Below are positions 3,666 to 24,470 of a stretch of 28,621 nucleotides of DNA, in pieces. The notes under the pieces are model-generated. The model worked only from the letters and a program-made list of their open reading frames with translations, searched no databases and was not told where the DNA came from. The translations under genes were made by a program, and so were the position numbers. The first letter of the stretch is position 1. Each line of letters opens with the position of its first letter. The DNA comes from a virus: the IMG/VR virus record IMGVR_UViG_3300027320_000041, positions 1 to 28,621 of that record, one strand, 5' to 3'.

Positions 3666-4559
3666 TTAGTAGGTGCCGCCGTCGATGCTGGCCTCGAGGC
3701 TGTCCAGGCGTGCGTCGAGTGCGTCGTCTGCACTTGCGCGGGCTGTTGCCTCACTTGTGATGTTGGTCTGTAGGCTGGTGTCAGCACTGGCGCGGGTTGT
3801 CGCTTCAGCGGTGATGTTGCTTTGCAGCGTTGTGTCGGCGCTGGAGCGTGTGCTTGCTTCGGCGGTGATGTTCGACTGAAGAGTCGTGTCGGCGGCTGCG
3901 CGTGCGGACTCTTCGGTGTTGATGTCTGCTTCGGCTGCGGTGACGCGGGTAGCGAGTGCTGTCGCGGCGGACTCCACGGTGTCGATGCGGCCACCGAGGG
4001 CTGTGTCGGCACTGGTGCGGTTCGTGACTTCCGAAGCGAGCGCGGCGTTGTTGCTGGAAACGTAACCAGCGAAGGCGGTGTCGTTGGTCGCATCAACCGA
4101 GTTGATGAGGGTGACGATCTCGGCGAAAGTGTCGCTGTTTGCGCCTGCTGCGGAGAGGATCGCGTCGATACGGCCTTTTTCCGTGCTGATCTTGCCGTCG
4201 AGGGTCGTGTCTGCCGAGCTACGAGCGGAGGCTTCTGAGCTGATCGCGGCGGCGCGGTCTGTGAGCTCTTGTGCGAGTCCTGCGGCGATGCCACTTTCAG
4301 CACTTTGTGCCCGTGAAATTTCCGAATTCAGCGAGGAGGTGAGTGTCGAGTCGCCTGAGCTGCGAAGCGCTCCTTCAGCGGCTACGGCGTCACTGACGAA
4401 GGTCTTTTTTGAAAAGATGTGCTCGCCACCGATTGGCAAGACGCCTTCGGCTGTTCCGATGAAAAGTGACTTGTTTGTGGAGTCGAAGGCTACTTCCCCG
4501 ACTTGAAGCGAGACCGGACTGCCGGAGCCGCGTTTGATTTTGATGATGGGATTAGGCAT
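3666..4559 (-). CDS. Tail fibre protein with 18-residue repeats
   Basis: A 297-residue fibre protein. The N-terminus (KIKRGSGSPVSLQVGEVAFD, then a SLFIG motif) is a typical fibre head domain. The middle has the phrase TFAEIVTLINSVDATNDTAF, often seen in fibre shafts. Three near-identical 18-residue repeats (ADTTLQSNITAEASTRSS and variants, residues about 223-276) are followed by a diverged fourth, and long Ala/Ser/Thr/Glu-rich helical segments precede them. This suggests a trimeric coiled-coil shaft. It lies between the 75-residue fibre protein gene and the short fibre gene. The start has no ribosome site but a C/A-rich leader resembling that of the capsid gene. Confidence 0.75.
   Translation of the reverse strand: MPNPIIKIKRGSGSPVSLQVGEVAFDSTNKSLFIGTAEGVLPIGGEHIFSKKTFVSDAVAAEGALRSSGDSTLTSSLNSEISRAQSAESGIAAGLAQELTDRAAAISSEASARSSADTTLDGKISTEKGRIDAILSAAGANSDTFAEIVTLINSVDATNDTAFAGYVSSNNAALASEVTNRTSADTALGGRIDTVESAATALATRVTAAEADINTEESARAAADTTLQSNITAEASTRSSADTTLQSNITAEATTRASADTSLQTNITSEATARASADDALDARLDSLEASIDGGTY
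3732..3893 (-). repeat. Three tandem 54-bp repeats inside a fibre gene
   Basis: Three in-frame 54-bp units encode 18-residue repeats beginning ADTTLQ/ADTSLQ. They are coding repeats of a fibre shaft, prone to copy-number change by slippage or recombination, and not a CRISPR. Confidence 0.75.
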
Positions 4560-18870: not shown

Positions 18871-20577
18871 TTATTTGATAACCCACCAAGCGACGCCGTG
18901 GAGCTTGGTGCAGTCGCCGTAGTGATCTTCGGCGACTTTCTTCCAGTAGAATGGGGCGAGGCGGGAGTGTTTATTCTGGAGGAGTTGCTGGCCGGAGTGT
19001 CCGACGATGAAGTCGTTGCCTGCGTCGGAGGGAAGATGGAAGGGGGGCGGCATTTTTTTATTAATGCGCTCGAGGTACAGCTCGATCTTGGCTGTGTGGT
19101 CGACGTAGGTGACGAGGCGGAGGCCGGGGTAGCCATTAATGGTGGATTGATTCCATGTGCCGAATGCGGCGGACGAGCCTTTGGAGGGGATGTATAGGCC
19201 GCCACTCTTGGCGCAGACGGAATAGACGCGCTCGGCGGACCAACCGGAATCAATGAGGCCGAAGCGGGGGGTGAATGTTTTTTCGCCGAAGGTGTAGGAG
19301 CGCTGCGCGAGGAAGTCGGGGGAGATGAGATCTTCGATGGCGAGGACGGTGCCGTAGTCGATGACCCAACTCTCGCCGGTGGCGATGCGGGCCTCGACGG
19401 TCCAGTGGGTCTGGCGCTCGCCGGGGTCGGCACAAAGGGTAAGGATGACGGGCTCGATGGGTAACTCGCGGATGCGGTAGTCGGTGGACCGCAGCGCGAG
19501 GATGGACGACTCTTTGACGGTGGCGGCGCGGTTCTCCCACGGGATGCCGAGGAAGTTGTTATGAAAATCGTGGAGGCCGCCGGGGCTGTCTTTTTTTTGA
19601 AGGAATGTCCTGGCTAAATCGCCCCAAGACATCTGGGGGGAATAGAGGGCGGAGATGTGCGCGGAGATGTGATCGGTGGGGGCCTTGGGATTCCCTGCTA
19701 TCCACTCGCCTGCGCGGATGAGATCGCTCTGCATGGACTGGGGCCAGTGAGATTCGCAGGCCTCGCAGGCGTAGGTGGTCTCGTCGGCGACTCCTTCGAG
19801 ATCCCAAGCACCGGCGAGATCGCGGTGATGCTCGGGCCACTTGAGCTGCTCGAAGCGGAGGGGCTGGGCGGTGCCGCAATCGGGACACTTGATGTGGTAG
19901 CGGTGCTGGCTACCGGCGAGGAAGTTCTGCCAGATCGCGGCGGACTCGACGGTGGGCGTGGAGGTGAGGCAGACCTTGGCGATCTTGCGGTAGAAATTCG
20001 TCCGAGCGATGGCGAGCTCGAGGGCGGGGGCTTCGAGGGAGGAATCGTCGGGCCACTTGTCCACCTCATCGGCGAATAAATAACGAATCGCGCGGGAGGC
20101 TAGGTTGCCTTCAGAACAGGCCCCGACGAGCTTGATGGTGCATGTGGAAAAGTGCATTTCCGTTTTTCGGAAGTCATCTTCGTTGGCAGGAAGGAGGTGC
20201 TTGATGGCTTTGCAGGCGCGCAGCCGGGGGTGCAACTCGCGCTCAGACCAGCTCTTGGCGTTCTCGTTGGTCGAGGTGACGTAGAGGATCGGGCCGGGGT
20301 CTTCGGAGATGGCCCACATGAGGCAGTTGGCCAGCCAGGTGGTGCCGCCGACTTGGGCGGACTTCACAAAAGTGAGCTGGCGGACGCGGGGATTGGAAAA
20401 CCAAAGGTGAAGCTGCCGAAGATAGGGAGTATAATCGGCGTCGTATTTCCCAGGGCGCGGGGTGAAGCGCTTGTCGAGGGTGACATTGTCCTGTGCCCAC
20501 TCGAGGGCCGATGGACGGCGGCCCGGGTCCCAGATGCGAGCGAGTTGCTCGCGGATATCGGTCTCAAGCGATGGCAT
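18871..20577 (-). CDS. terL: Terminase large subunit (lambda GpA family)
   Basis: A 568-residue packaging motor. The ATPase has a Walker-A-like KSAQVGGTTWL (about 72-82) and Walker B YLFADEVD (about 166-173). A zinc-binding insert has CPDCG and CEAC. The nuclease part shows acidic positions in LCADPGE, GLIDSGW and EDHYGDCTKLHG. This matches the GpA family, usually linked to cohesive-end cutting. It overlaps the small subunit by 14 bases at its start (ATG 20577) and its stop abuts the convergent TM2 gene. Identification is firm; cos-type packaging is inferred from family. Confidence 0.93.
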   Translation of the reverse strand: MPSLETDIREQLARIWDPGRRPSALEWAQDNVTLDKRFTPRPGKYDADYTPYLRQLHLWFSNPRVRQLTFVKSAQVGGTTWLANCLMWAISEDPGPILYVTSTNENAKSWSERELHPRLRACKAIKHLLPANEDDFRKTEMHFSTCTIKLVGACSEGNLASRAIRYLFADEVDKWPDDSSLEAPALELAIARTNFYRKIAKVCLTSTPTVESAAIWQNFLAGSQHRYHIKCPDCGTAQPLRFEQLKWPEHHRDLAGAWDLEGVADETTYACEACESHWPQSMQSDLIRAGEWIAGNPKAPTDHISAHISALYSPQMSWGDLARTFLQKKDSPGGLHDFHNNFLGIPWENRAATVKESSILALRSTDYRIRELPIEPVILTLCADPGERQTHWTVEARIATGESWVIDYGTVLAIEDLISPDFLAQRSYTFGEKTFTPRFGLIDSGWSAERVYSVCAKSGGLYIPSKGSSAAFGTWNQSTINGYPGLRLVTYVDHTAKIELYLERINKKMPPPFHLPSDAGNDFIVGHSGQQLLQNKHSRLAPFYWKKVAEDHYGDCTKLHGVAWWVIK

Positions 20578-21163
20578 CGTCGAGGCGGATCTCTTTGGCC
20601 GAGCGCATCACGTCGGTGATCTCGGCATGGATTTTTGCGGCGATGTCTTCGCCGATCTGAGGGAGGAGGCTGAGGATGCGGTCGGGGAGATTCGAGACGG
20701 CGGCGGCCACCCCGGCGGAGTATTGAAGGAGCGCTTGATGGAAAAGCCGCTTGCTCACCACATCTCCCGAGGCGGTGGCAATCCCAGGCGCGTCTTTTTC
20801 GAGACGACGAAGGGCTTCGGCGTGCTGAAGCCACATCCGGCGGAGAGTCATCTCGGAATCAAGGTCGCCGACGCTCTTGGCAAGCTCGGCACGCTCCCGC
20901 AAATCGGCAGTGGCTTCCTTGAGTTTGCGGATCTGGGTGTCCAAGGTCAGTTCCTCATCGGTCCACTCCCGGGGATTGGCGCTTTGCGCCGGAGCCAGAG
21001 TAGCCGAGCCCATAGGAACCATCCCGGAAATCGCCCGATCGGCTATAAATTTTCCCCAACGAGGGTCCGCAGCATCCCGCCACTTGCGAACAGCACGCGG
21101 CGTCACGCCGTGGCGCGCCGCGCATGTCTTGATTAGTTCTGCCTGTTCCCTTCCGTGTCGCAT
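20564..21163 (-). CDS. terS: Terminase small subunit
   Basis: A 199-residue protein with an N-terminal helix-turn-helix (AELIKTCAARHGVTPRAVRK, about residues 8-27) that should bind the packaging start site, a coiled-coil centre (LRERAELAKSVGDLDSEMTL) and a C-terminal part that would contact the large subunit. It is the first gene of the late operon and overlaps terL. ATG 21163 has a TTTGACA box 23 nt upstream, and a cluster of GGAAC repeats lies within 70 bases, a plausible binding region. Confidence 0.82.
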   Translation of the reverse strand: MRHGREQAELIKTCAARHGVTPRAVRKWRDAADPRWGKFIADRAISGMVPMGSATLAPAQSANPREWTDEELTLDTQIRKLKEATADLRERAELAKSVGDLDSEMTLRRMWLQHAEALRRLEKDAPGIATASGDVVSKRLFHQALLQYSAGVAAAVSNLPDRILSLLPQIGEDIAAKIHAEITDVMRSAKEIRLDDAIA

Positions 21164-21172
21164 ATTGCTTTA

Positions 21173-21230
21173 CGGAACAGGCCGCGTGTCAAAGGAACGG
21201 CAACGGAACGGGTGCCGCAGTTCCAGTTCC
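21173..21230. promoter_or_regulatory. GGAAC repeat cluster, candidate terminase-binding (cosB-like) site
   Basis: Five GGAAC pentamers occur in 58 bases directly upstream of terS: plus strand at 21174, 21194 and 21205, minus strand at 21220-21224 and 21226-21230. Repeated short sites beside terS resemble the R-sites of cosB in lambda. The cohesive end itself was not located. Confidence 0.45.
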
Positions 21231-21334
21231 GTATGCTTTTGGCCTTACTCGCTCAAAAACACCGATCGTCTGGCTAAACTGCAAGAACGCCCACGCTGAA
21301 AAGATTCCTTAGCACGCCAGTGGAAAACCCAAAC

Positions 21335-21350
21335 GCATAGGTGCGTAGGT
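21335..21350 (+). repeat. Iteron pair 1 (GCATAGGT, GCGTAGGT)
   Basis: Two octamers, 21335-21342 and 21343-21350, directly abutting, followed by an AT-rich stretch. Confidence 0.85.
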
Positions 21351-21403
21351 CAAAAACTTTATTCTCTAACGATACCCATACCCTCAATTAAAAAAGTCAA
21401 AAG

Positions 21404-21427
21404 ACCTATGCTACCTATGCCACCTAG
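21404..21427 (-). repeat. Iteron pair 2, inverted (ACCTATGC x2)
   Basis: Inverted copies at 21404-21411 and 21413-21420, plus a partial ACCTAG at 21422-21427. They can pair with the first group. Confidence 0.85.
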
Positions 21428-21480
21428 TTCAGCCATCACAGAAGAAATGCGTGGAGAACAACTTACAACACAATGAAACT

Positions 21481-21507
21481 GCATAGGTACTGCGTAGGTG
21501 CATAGGT
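21481..21507 (+). repeat. Iteron group 3 (GCATAGGT, GCGTAGGT, GCATAGGT)
   Basis: Three direct copies at 21481-21488, 21492-21499 and 21500-21507. Confidence 0.85.
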
Positions 21508-21567
21508 CATCTGCGAACTCTGTAATGAAGGGTCAGGGAATGAGACGAGAGGAGCGGAACCGATCGG

Positions 21568-21586
21568 ACCTGTGCTTGACCTATGC
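21568..21586 (-). repeat. Iteron pair 4, inverted (ACCTGTGC, ACCTATGC)
   Basis: Inverted copies at 21568-21575 (one mismatch) and 21579-21586, just before the terminator of the replication operon. Confidence 0.8.
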
Positions 21587-21618
21587 AAACAAAAAGGCCC
21601 GCCGTGATGGCGGGCCTT
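21586..21618 (-). terminator. Rho-independent terminator of the replication operon
   Basis: A 10-bp stem AAGGCCCGCC/GGCGGGCCTT (21594-21603 with 21609-21618) with a 5-base loop is followed on the minus strand by TTTTTGTTTG. It ends transcripts leaving the helicase gene, isolating them from the iteron block. Confidence 0.88.
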
Positions 21619-21644
21619 GTGAGGTATGGAGTCAATGGGCTGGG

Positions 21645-23270
21645 TTAGTTGAGGACCTCGAGGGTGTAGAGTCGCTGGCGGTTCTTTCCCTGCTGCCCCC
21701 ACTTAACGACGCGCCCAGTCGGCAGCGTGAACTTCTTGCCGCCATAAGCTTCAGCGAGGAGCTTACCGAACTTCGACTTGGCGCGAGCCGTGAGGACGTA
21801 ATGACGAGGGCCATCCTTGCCTTCACGCTCCTCCTTGCCTTCTAACAACCAGGTGAATGAGTTCACATCGAGGGCGGCCTGCACCACGGTTTGGAAGTCG
21901 AACTCAGCCACATCGTCCACACCTTTTGCCAACTCAGCCACCAGGGCGACCATATCAGCCAACTCCGAGTTGCCGGACTCCTCGACAGGAAGAGGTTCGA
22001 TAGGGTCTCCGAACCCAGCAAACTCCACCATGCCAGCAAAGATCTGGCACCATTGCTCGTACCCACGCACCAATCGCTTGGCATGGGGACGGCCTGCTGC
22101 GTCCCACTCGCGGACGATCGCCCACAGACAGGCGAGGAGTTGAGATCTCACCTCGGGCCGCTCGAGCCACTCATCGCTCATGACATTCTCGATCTTGCGC
22201 GCCTGGGGATCGGACTCATCCGTCATCATCTTGCAATGAAGGAACCGTCGGGCCACGTCAGGCGAGACCTCGAGGTTGTTCCCTGTCAGGAACACACTGG
22301 CAATCTTTGGAACTGCAAACTTCTGTTGGCTGTGCATACGGCGGCCAGACCATGTGGGAGCAGTCAGAAACGCATTAAGGATCTGGCTTTTGAAAAAACC
22401 ATTGCAGTCATCGAATAGGATATAGGGAGAGCCTGCTAGGGATTCCGTATCGAGGATCTTCCTCCACTCTTCCTCGGCAGACGGCACAGGCTGCACGTCA
22501 CATGAGCCGATCGTGGTTATGATAGCGAGCTGTGCCAGCAACGTCTTACCCGATCCAACTGAGTTCGAGCTGAACATGAAGTTGAGACGCCGAGCCGATG
22601 GGCGGAGCAGTGGGGCCGCATACATGCCCAGCATAGACGCCAGGACGATGGCCTCATTGCGCGATCCTCCATCTGATCGACGATCCCCAAATGGGAACTC
22701 CTTGAGAATATTACGCAACACCGTCTTTGCCTCATCGAGCGGCATATCATGTGCAAACTCCACTCCCGAGTTTTGTGTGTATGTTTGAGCCTCGGCATCA
22801 TACCCATAGTCCAGCAACTCCACTCGGCCATCCTTCCTCTTCACCGGTTGGCGCACCGTAGCCACCCGCATGAGCTCACGTTGCCGAGATAGGAACTGAT
22901 CTGACTCCAGTATAGTCGCTGCCGACTCCACCGTCATGGTTTGCGCCTTTTTTTCAAAAACATTCGGCGAAGGTGTGGCCCACTTGAAAGTCACAAGGTG
23001 CTCCTCGCAATAGGTACGGAAGCGGCGCGCCGTCATCTCCACCAACCGACCATCAGGCGAGACTGTCATGGCCGCACGCTGCCGGACAAAGACTCCATTC
23101 TGCGAGAGCACCCCACCGATTTCTCGGGCCATCGATGAGATGACCGGCACCAGCTCGATATACGGGAGAGTATTCGTCTCCGATTTGGGTTGCGTCTCTT
23201 CCTCACTAGGGTGAGGGGTGATTCCATATTCCGCCAATTTGCTGTTAATAGTATCAGATAATTTACTCAC
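21645..23270 (-). CDS. Phage replicative helicase, P-loop/SF3-like
   Basis: A 541-residue ATPase. The N-terminal about 190 residues have no clear motif. The helicase core has Walker A SNSVGSGKT (GSGKT at 239-243), Walker B YILFDDCNG (Asp287-Asp288), a sensor-like VFLTGNN (about 326-332) and the Arg-finger candidate DVARRFL (341-342). It follows the PrimPol-like gene, overlapping it by 8 bases at the GTG 23270 start with an AAAGG ribosome site. It ends about 26 bases from the terminator. Together the pair should prime and unwind DNA at the iterons. SF3/D5-like assignment is by motif layout; an alternative is a DUF927-type ATPase. Confidence 0.72.
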   Translation of the reverse strand: MSKLSDTINSKLAEYGITPHPSEEETQPKSETNTLPYIELVPVISSMAREIGGVLSQNGVFVRQRAAMTVSPDGRLVEMTARRFRTYCEEHLVTFKWATPSPNVFEKKAQTMTVESAATILESDQFLSRQRELMRVATVRQPVKRKDGRVELLDYGYDAEAQTYTQNSGVEFAHDMPLDEAKTVLRNILKEFPFGDRRSDGGSRNEAIVLASMLGMYAAPLLRPSARRLNFMFSSNSVGSGKTLLAQLAIITTIGSCDVQPVPSAEEEWRKILDTESLAGSPYILFDDCNGFFKSQILNAFLTAPTWSGRRMHSQQKFAVPKIASVFLTGNNLEVSPDVARRFLHCKMMTDESDPQARKIENVMSDEWLERPEVRSQLLACLWAIVREWDAAGRPHAKRLVRGYEQWCQIFAGMVEFAGFGDPIEPLPVEESGNSELADMVALVAELAKGVDDVAEFDFQTVVQAALDVNSFTWLLEGKEEREGKDGPRHYVLTARAKSKFGKLLAEAYGGKKFTLPTGRVVKWGQQGKNRQRLYTLEVLN

Positions 23271-24414
23271 ATTTGCCTTTCAGTTCACCCGCTGCGCCAA
23301 GCAGCCAAGCGTCAAATTTTCGATAGAAGTCGCACGCGGCAGCCGCCCTCGCCGTATCTGGCTGAGGGTAGTTTTGTTCTGCCAACCGGATTGCCTCCCG
23401 ACGCCAAAAGCCCAGGACATCCCGCCGAGGCATAAGGTCGGACAACGTCAAAGACGGAGCCGACGGCGCAAAATAAAGTAGCTTCTGGACTTTCTCTCCA
23501 CGCAGACACGCCGGTAGACGAGTCAAGCGCACGGCACTGAGAGCGCCCGGGTCAGCCCCTGCGACCACAAGACCCATGACCTTTCGCTTTTCGTCATCCC
23601 ATTCCTTCTTCGATCGAGCATCCACCCTGACCAGTGCATGGACAGAGCGGCCCCCTGAAGTCGTGATGGCCGCGATCCTCGGCATGATACGAGCCAAAGC
23701 TGCGAGCCAGAGCTTCACCGGAGCCTCATCAGACTCGAGGACCATCCATCTCCAGGCCAACACCGACTCCTCGGAGCGGCGGGACATTTTCCCCAGGCGA
23801 GGATTTGGGCGAGACTTCCCATCCACCGGCTGGGCGAGAAACCAAATGCCTTCCGGTCCCGAAGTCGGTATCCGATCAGTCGGCCAGATCGCTTGGCCCT
23901 GGCTTTTGTATTCAGAAAAGACAACCACCCTCTCTCCGGCTGGAGCATTATAAAGCCGAGCAAGGAACTCTTCAGCCGATACGGTAGCAGGATCGACCTC
24001 GGAACGATTCGCAAGCCAGACCAGATCGACCTTATCAGCCAGATCACCGGCAAGACGAGAGAGAGCATTGACATCAAAAATTCTTTTCTCTGGAGGCCTC
24101 GCTGGGCGGGTGGGAGCAAAGTGAGTTGACTCAGGAGCCGAGGCCGACCCGAGCAGATAGCCGTCAGCACCAGGACCATTCGCGGCGGAGCGGATCTTGT
24201 GCTCGAGTTCGTGCTCGGTCCAGCGATCCGCATTGCCTTGGTTCCACTCAGCCAACAAAGCCAAAGCATCCGAATGAGGAATCATAAATCCCTTCACCAG
24301 CGATTTGGCCGCCAGCAGTGTATGGGTATGTCCACCAGCCCCAGATATAGCCGGACCCACCTTTGCCAGATAACGACGCGCGCGCTCGATGACTGGAACT
24401 TTTTCCTTGCTCAC
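23263..24414 (-). CDS. Primase-polymerase-like replication protein
   Basis: A 383-residue protein. The N-terminus (ERARRYLAKVGPAISGAGGH, followed by an AEWNQG...W-x-EHEL pattern) matches the helical domain seen next to phage primases. The later part has a candidate AEP primase layout: motif I WRWMVLESDEAP (Glu227, Asp229), motif II SGGRSVHALV (His259), motif III SAVRLTRLPACLRG (about 293-306). It likely makes primers for the downstream helicase. I chose GTG 24414 over the longer start at 24462 because GGGGAGGGG lies just before it. The region upstream holds the putative attP and, divergently, integrase. Confidence 0.68.
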   Translation of the reverse strand: MSKEKVPVIERARRYLAKVGPAISGAGGHTHTLLAAKSLVKGFMIPHSDALALLAEWNQGNADRWTEHELEHKIRSAANGPGADGYLLGSASAPESTHFAPTRPARPPEKRIFDVNALSRLAGDLADKVDLVWLANRSEVDPATVSAEEFLARLYNAPAGERVVVFSEYKSQGQAIWPTDRIPTSGPEGIWFLAQPVDGKSRPNPRLGKMSRRSEESVLAWRWMVLESDEAPVKLWLAALARIMPRIAAITTSGGRSVHALVRVDARSKKEWDDEKRKVMGLVVAGADPGALSAVRLTRLPACLRGEKVQKLLYFAPSAPSLTLSDLMPRRDVLGFWRREAIRLAEQNYPQPDTARAAAACDFYRKFDAWLLGAAGELKGKCE

Positions 24415-24470
24415 AATCCCCTCCCCGTGCAGAGTCGGATCTTGTTGCACACCGGCGACCACCCTAAAAA

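Follow-up and report, generated by a model that had tools for sequence, protein, structure and literature searches.

The array of short repeats found in a linear IMG/VR phage contig is most probably a replication origin, read by the C-terminal domain of the helicase encoded just upstream. The window, as the whole analysed stretch is called here, comprises the 28,621 bases of one virus record. In it, the genes for a primase and an SF3/D5-like helicase are followed by the terminator, the array, the putative cos and the two terminase genes, first TerS and then TerL, as detailed below.

18871–20577, minus strand: TerL, large terminase subunit, gpA type (Pfam PF05876, E 1.1e-55)
20564–21163, minus strand: TerS, small terminase subunit (PHROG 57, E 1.6e-4; position before TerL)
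21163–21243, no strand: GGAAC/GTTCC repeats between the putative cos and TerS, possibly cosB, at the position where cosB is expected
21268–21279, minus strand: putative cos with its 12-nt overhang region GTTTAGCCAGAC, left genome end at 21279 (from contig ends)
21302–21310, minus strand: AAGGAATCT block between array and cos, almost invariant, kept in almost every lineage
21335–21586, no strand: iteron array, proposed origin, eight exact GCRTAGGT copies and a one-mismatch ninth
21358–21397, no strand: A+T-rich stretch, candidate melting site, 40 bp, 70% A+T vs 42% for the window
21594–21618, minus strand: stem of a terminator hairpin between helicase gene and array, conserved in relatives
21645–23270, minus strand: SF3/D5-like AAA+ helicase, proposed initiator, 541 aa (Walker motifs, structure model, Foldseek)
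21648–21896, minus strand: last 83 helicase codons, proposed octamer-reading domain (exchanged with the array, covarying with the octamer)
23263–24462, minus strand: primase-like protein, 399 aa (PHROG 2597 DNA primase, E 1.1e-12)

The window has its own TerS, gpA-type TerL, lambda-family portal, ClpP-type protease and tape measure genes, and thus does not qualify as a satellite of the PICI type. The primase-like protein, the helicase and an integrase are encoded on the side opposite to the virion and packaging genes, and the phage is very probably temperate. The relatives in assembled genomes belong to Chthoniobacter flavus, to Spartobacteria MAGs and, in one case, to a Burkholderiaceae MAG, and among named phages Akkermansia phage Moulinsart has the best-matching primase; these relatives and this match hint at a host within the Verrucomicrobiota. 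Elsewhere in the window (3666–4559), a predicted protein contains numerous SADTTLQSNITAEAS-type repeats and is probably a part of a coiled tail fibre.

The octamer array and the neighbouring cos site

Exact copies of GCRTAGGT start at 21335, 21343, 21481, 21492 and 21500 on the plus strand, and at 21404, 21413 and 21579 on the minus strand. The ninth site of the array (21568–21575, minus strand) is the one-mismatch copy GCACAGGT, and a weaker third copy, AACTAGGT, is seen in the second cluster (21422–21429, minus strand), where some relatives have a full octamer. The whole window holds nine exact octamers vs 0.67 expected, a number reached in none of 100 dinucleotide shuffles; eight of them lie inside the array, the remaining one, at 19769 within terL, being unrelated. 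A de novo search gave ACCTATGC as the top 8-mer, with nine sites at one mismatch or fewer vs a shuffle maximum of four. The (++)(--)(+++)(--) layout of the preliminary description is thus real, with start-to-start distances of 8–11 bp within clusters, and so are the AT-rich core, located between the clusters at 21335–21350 and 21404–21420, and the terminator that fences the array on the helicase side. In several lineages the A+T maximum (0.80–0.93) is found between the third and fourth clusters. The octamer count over the window revealed no second array.

Other early suggestions about the layout fared less well. Large cruciforms had been envisaged, but the inverted arms are short and imperfect (14–20 nt, 75–86%), and the single-strand DNA fold has a z value of -2.7, which inverted octamers alone may give; a cruciform is accordingly not retained as a mechanism. 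The idea of initiator dimers positioned face to face is likewise unsupported. As for cumulative skew, which had been advised as a check, the GC skew changes sign close to 21 kb, dropping from positive to slightly negative values with the genes still on the same strand, and is positive again at 24 kb (21001–24000); the sign change is present but not clean, and at best suggestive.

A physical genome end appears to lie close to the array. Nine contigs from other samples (L011, L013, L015, L016, L017, L019, L024, L026 and L038), whose TerS proteins are 73–97% identical to that of the window, begin at the identical base (GTTT...), about 116 bp upstream of TerS and 56 bp beyond the array. A single contig arriving from the other side, L060, ends in ...GTTTGCCAGTCG, and L019 starts with GTTTGCCAGTCG, so that the two overlap by 12 nt. 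Such an overlap is the expected remnant of filled-in lambda-type overhangs. The shared start base and the end of L060, 12 nt further in, suggest that a lambda-like cos of 12 nt separates array and TerS, a site that went unremarked in the first description. Given this putative cos, the array would occupy the stretch 56–307 bp inside the right end of the packaged chromosome. The AAGGAATCT block stands 15–35 bp before the presumed cut, even with an unrelated TerS, and is also seen upstream of TerL in Akkermansia phage Moulinsart (L047, about 316–325); it is perhaps a cosQ-like or TerL site.

Conservation of the array in relatives

In near relatives, with helicases 55–99% identical to that of the window, the intergenic region can be aligned and the clusters persist. 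Over a range of helicase identities from 99% to about 34%, the array is retained just 3' of the helicase gene, while the adjacent TerS is swapped for one without detectable similarity. This constancy agrees with the first proposal of a likely origin, and it makes the helicase the likely binder, since the array stays beside it over wide divergence while TerS is replaced.

The same picture emerged from a gene-blind scan of IMG/VR DNA, with two adjacent octamers as the query, which yields many chance matches: all mixed-orientation clusters of at least four octamers were 3' of a helicase homologue. Two of the loci found in this way, L095 and L142, have helicases only 38% and 34% identical to that of the window, and phmmer found no similarity between their TerS proteins and the window TerS. 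Same-strand runs of octamers in L077, L079, L084, L093, L098, L118, L122, L123, L138 and L141 have no helicase neighbour and were considered unrelated.

A profile search yielded 27 loci with helicases 33–39% identical. In most such remote relatives an array with this layout occupies the corresponding position, though its octamer varies from lineage to lineage. RCRYAGGT is used in nine remote lineages (L095, L142, L217, L221, L222, L224, L225, L226 and L231), with 5–11 sites each in the 900 bp after the helicase vs 0–0.3 expected. Different octamers in a similar pattern occupy the same place in most of the other lineages, namely GCAGGGGT in L228, GGMGGGGGT in L229 and L230, GGAACCGGT in L236, GTCAAGGT in L215 and L232, GTGCAGGT in L233 and GGCAGGT in L237–L239. 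Counts of the words found de novo exceed those of 20 dinucleotide shuffles in most remote lineages, and are at or near the shuffle maximum in L218, L230, L231 and L237. No array was found after the helicase in the remote loci L240 and L241, nor a clear one in Moulinsart, whose helicase is 28% identical. These absences and the low counts speak against the origin reading.

Several loci deserve mention on their own. Moulinsart has an integrase and an att-like direct repeat, present at both record ends, between the helicase and the cos block (L046:4361–5848, L047:1–505). In L145 (1–33), a very different protein of 837 aa, 26% identical over the helicase part, is directly followed by GCTAGGTGGCGTAGGTGGCGTAGGTGG, with which the contig ends; a third lineage may thus use this octamer. 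The Burkholderiaceae MAG contig L072 (7627–8096) encodes a helicase 73% identical, followed by the first two clusters only and then by an unrelated gene on the opposite strand; it is perhaps a prophage remnant or a misbinned contig.

The helicase tail as probable reader of the octamer

Pfam and NCBIfam gave no usable name for the primase or the helicase of the window, sequence-profile searches found no solved homologue, the solved SaPI proteins not excepted, and no match to a RepA or Rep_3 family initiator was seen among the window proteins scanned. Structure prediction was more informative for the helicase. An AlphaFold model of residues 170–541 reached a pLDDT of 87.5 and a pTM of 0.69 with 29 diverse sequences as input, eight close sequences giving only a pLDDT of 35.7. 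The modelled protein consists of an AAA+ core and a C-terminal domain, the latter predicted to be winged-helix-like from its order of secondary structures. Foldseek matches to this model include ASFV C962R, SaPI PriRep1 with dsDNA (7pds), NrS-1, the SaPI5 primase-helicase (7ola), mpox E5 and vaccinia D5, with E values of 1e-8 to 1e-5 for PriRep1, SaPI5, D5 and others. Regarding the other neighbour of the array, first described as PrimPol-like, its assignment as a primase is based on the PHROG match, and its membership of the PrimPol/AEP family is putative.

Either this protein or the N-terminus of the helicase had initially been proposed to bind the iterons. The helicase is indeed the likely binder, but probably not through its N-terminus: about 170 N-terminal residues are absent from most remote relatives that retain an array, and it is the C-terminal domain with which the octamer covaries and is exchanged. 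The exchange is best seen in L226, L228, L229, L230 and L236, in which the helicase core is 88–100% identical and the complete TerS 75–94% identical, while octamers and helicase C-termini differ. Over the contigs of L226 and L229 (L243 and L245), the DNA is mostly 97–100% identical up to a point some 250 bp short of the helicase stop codon. Identity is then only about 55% over the gene end and the whole array, and is back at 90–100% from +360, at the cos block. A similar drop over helicase tail and array is seen between L244 and L246. Since the drop spans both elements in the two pairs, the last ~83 helicase codons and the array have been replaced together, as a unit, in these relatives.

Partial Mantel tests, whose p values are rough because the lineages are not independent, point in the same direction. 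The octamer is correlated with the C-terminus given the AAA+ core (22 lineages, r 0.23, p 0.006) and given TerS (18 lineages, r 0.39, p 0.0005), and its correlation with TerS given the C-terminus is negative (r -0.24). As judged from these comparisons, the octamer tracks the last ~83 helicase residues rather than TerS or the AAA+ core. Among the L226–L230 helicases, position x of an LTLxRYAP motif and an RGRK/RHRR alternative split with the octamer: GCA... goes with x = G and RGRK (L226), and GG... with x = N and RHRR (N in L227, L229 and L230). These positions are candidate specificity residues.

The helicase would thus bind the octamers through its winged-helix-like C-terminal domain, by analogy with SaPI, PICI, SCCmec and P4 systems, and assemble on the inverted clusters. 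It would then melt the A+T-rich gap between two clusters and load itself there, with primers laid by the neighbouring primase. As the proposed origin is next to cos, in the terminal ~0.3 kb of the linear chromosome of the virion, initiation would take place after the ends have been joined. A more tentative proposal, which we regard as possible but rather doubtful, is that helicase tail and array form a single recombining specificity cassette under diversifying selection, which would block co-resident phages, or satellites needing foreign initiators, from each other's origins, the conserved cos block and AAA+ core serving as borders for homologous exchange.

Alternative readings and known systems

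A packaging signal (cosB or pac) bound by TerS comes to mind when the array is found between helicase and TerS, 56 bp from the putative cos, and TerS-binding repeats are known beside cos in lambda. This reading looks improbable, given the lack of association between TerS and octamer. The window shares its octamer with L095, L142 and L217, whose TerS proteins are unrelated to its own; conversely, L229, L230 and L236 differ in octamer despite near-identical TerS proteins (88–94%), and the partial Mantel tests do not link TerS and octamer. Moreover, a separate set of GGAAC repeats is available on the TerS side of the cut. The position upstream of TerS could also hold regulator sites, the array then serving to control transcription of TerS and the late genes, or of the replication genes, as an operator or other regulatory region; a repressor might be the helicase itself or some other protein of the phage. 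We give similarly little credit to this explanation, which the linkage of the array to the helicase tail makes less likely: a regulator encoded elsewhere would not explain their joint exchange, a terminator stands between array and helicase gene, and no sigma-70-like promoter was found at 21000–21800, a weak test outside well-studied bacteria.

The phage encodes a tyrosine-type integrase, and integrase arm sites, too, consist of short repeats that face both ways; yet two genes and 3 kb separate the array from the integrase gene, and a change of helicase tail brings a change of octamer, so that arm-type sites seem extremely improbable. A copy-number or incompatibility element resembling P4 crr, or a partition site, with replication starting elsewhere, is a further reading, which agrees with the fact that the data bear on the probable reader of the array and not on the start of synthesis. 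Initiator-bound iterons are control elements too in P4 and in iteron plasmids. The chance of this reading nevertheless appears slim, given that in SaPIs and PICIs the origin itself occupies this position (PMC6092414), and that a single array with an A+T-rich gap is present in the window.

The reading of the array as an origin is further supported by these known systems. In SaPIs, iterons immediately 3' of the rep gene are the target of the C-terminal domain of Rep (PMC7581432), and a plasmid can replicate from a PICI pri-rep-ori segment (PMC6092414). The order of primase gene, helicase-initiator gene and iteron origin directly 3' is the same as here (PMC6092414, PMC7581432), and calling this an unusual minimal replicon was therefore an overstatement. 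Iteron sets beside an A+T-rich region and a D5/SF3-like helicase fold are also shared; the C-terminal domain binds the iterons in SaPIs and PICIs, and covariation and joint exchange of tail and array suggest a comparable reading here. This kind of replicon, with its gene order, iteron position and C-terminal reading, is thus already known. Unlike SaPIs and PICIs, the present elements are complete phages that encode capsid and terminase proteins themselves, the array has four clusters and lies against a cos site, the exchange of tail and array is seen directly, and no sequence similarity to the solved SaPI proteins is detectable.

In P4, according to work cited in PMC4234260, the C-terminal DNA-binding domain of the alpha helicase-primase recognises short iterons in ori/crr, much as proposed here; primase and helicase are two genes here vs one alpha protein in P4, and no counterpart of crr, as a second essential site, was seen here. 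SCCmec Cch2 similarly binds short iterons of a putative origin downstream of its gene through the C-terminal domain of an initiator helicase (PMC7581432), but it belongs to another mobile element, with only three iterons and a different primase system. Lambda cos is matched by the gpA-type TerL, the presumed 12-nt overhang and the repeats between cut and TerS, whereas the origin-like array just across the cut is particular to the present phages and their overhang is known from contig ends only. What appears new is a full-phage replicon, placed against a lambda-like cos, with natural exchange of tail and array between near-identical genomes.

Coincident contig starts in IMG/VR expose physical phage ends, and could be used to map cos in uncultivated phages. 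The natural swap pairs, with helicase cores 95–100% identical and a different tail and octamer, could help to solve the protein–DNA code of a self-loading initiator helicase. With an origin within 0.3–0.4 kb of a cohesive end, one may also ask how the phage separates initiation from end-joining and packaging. More generally, a probable origin and its probable reader are now supplied for a widespread family of mostly uncultivated phages.
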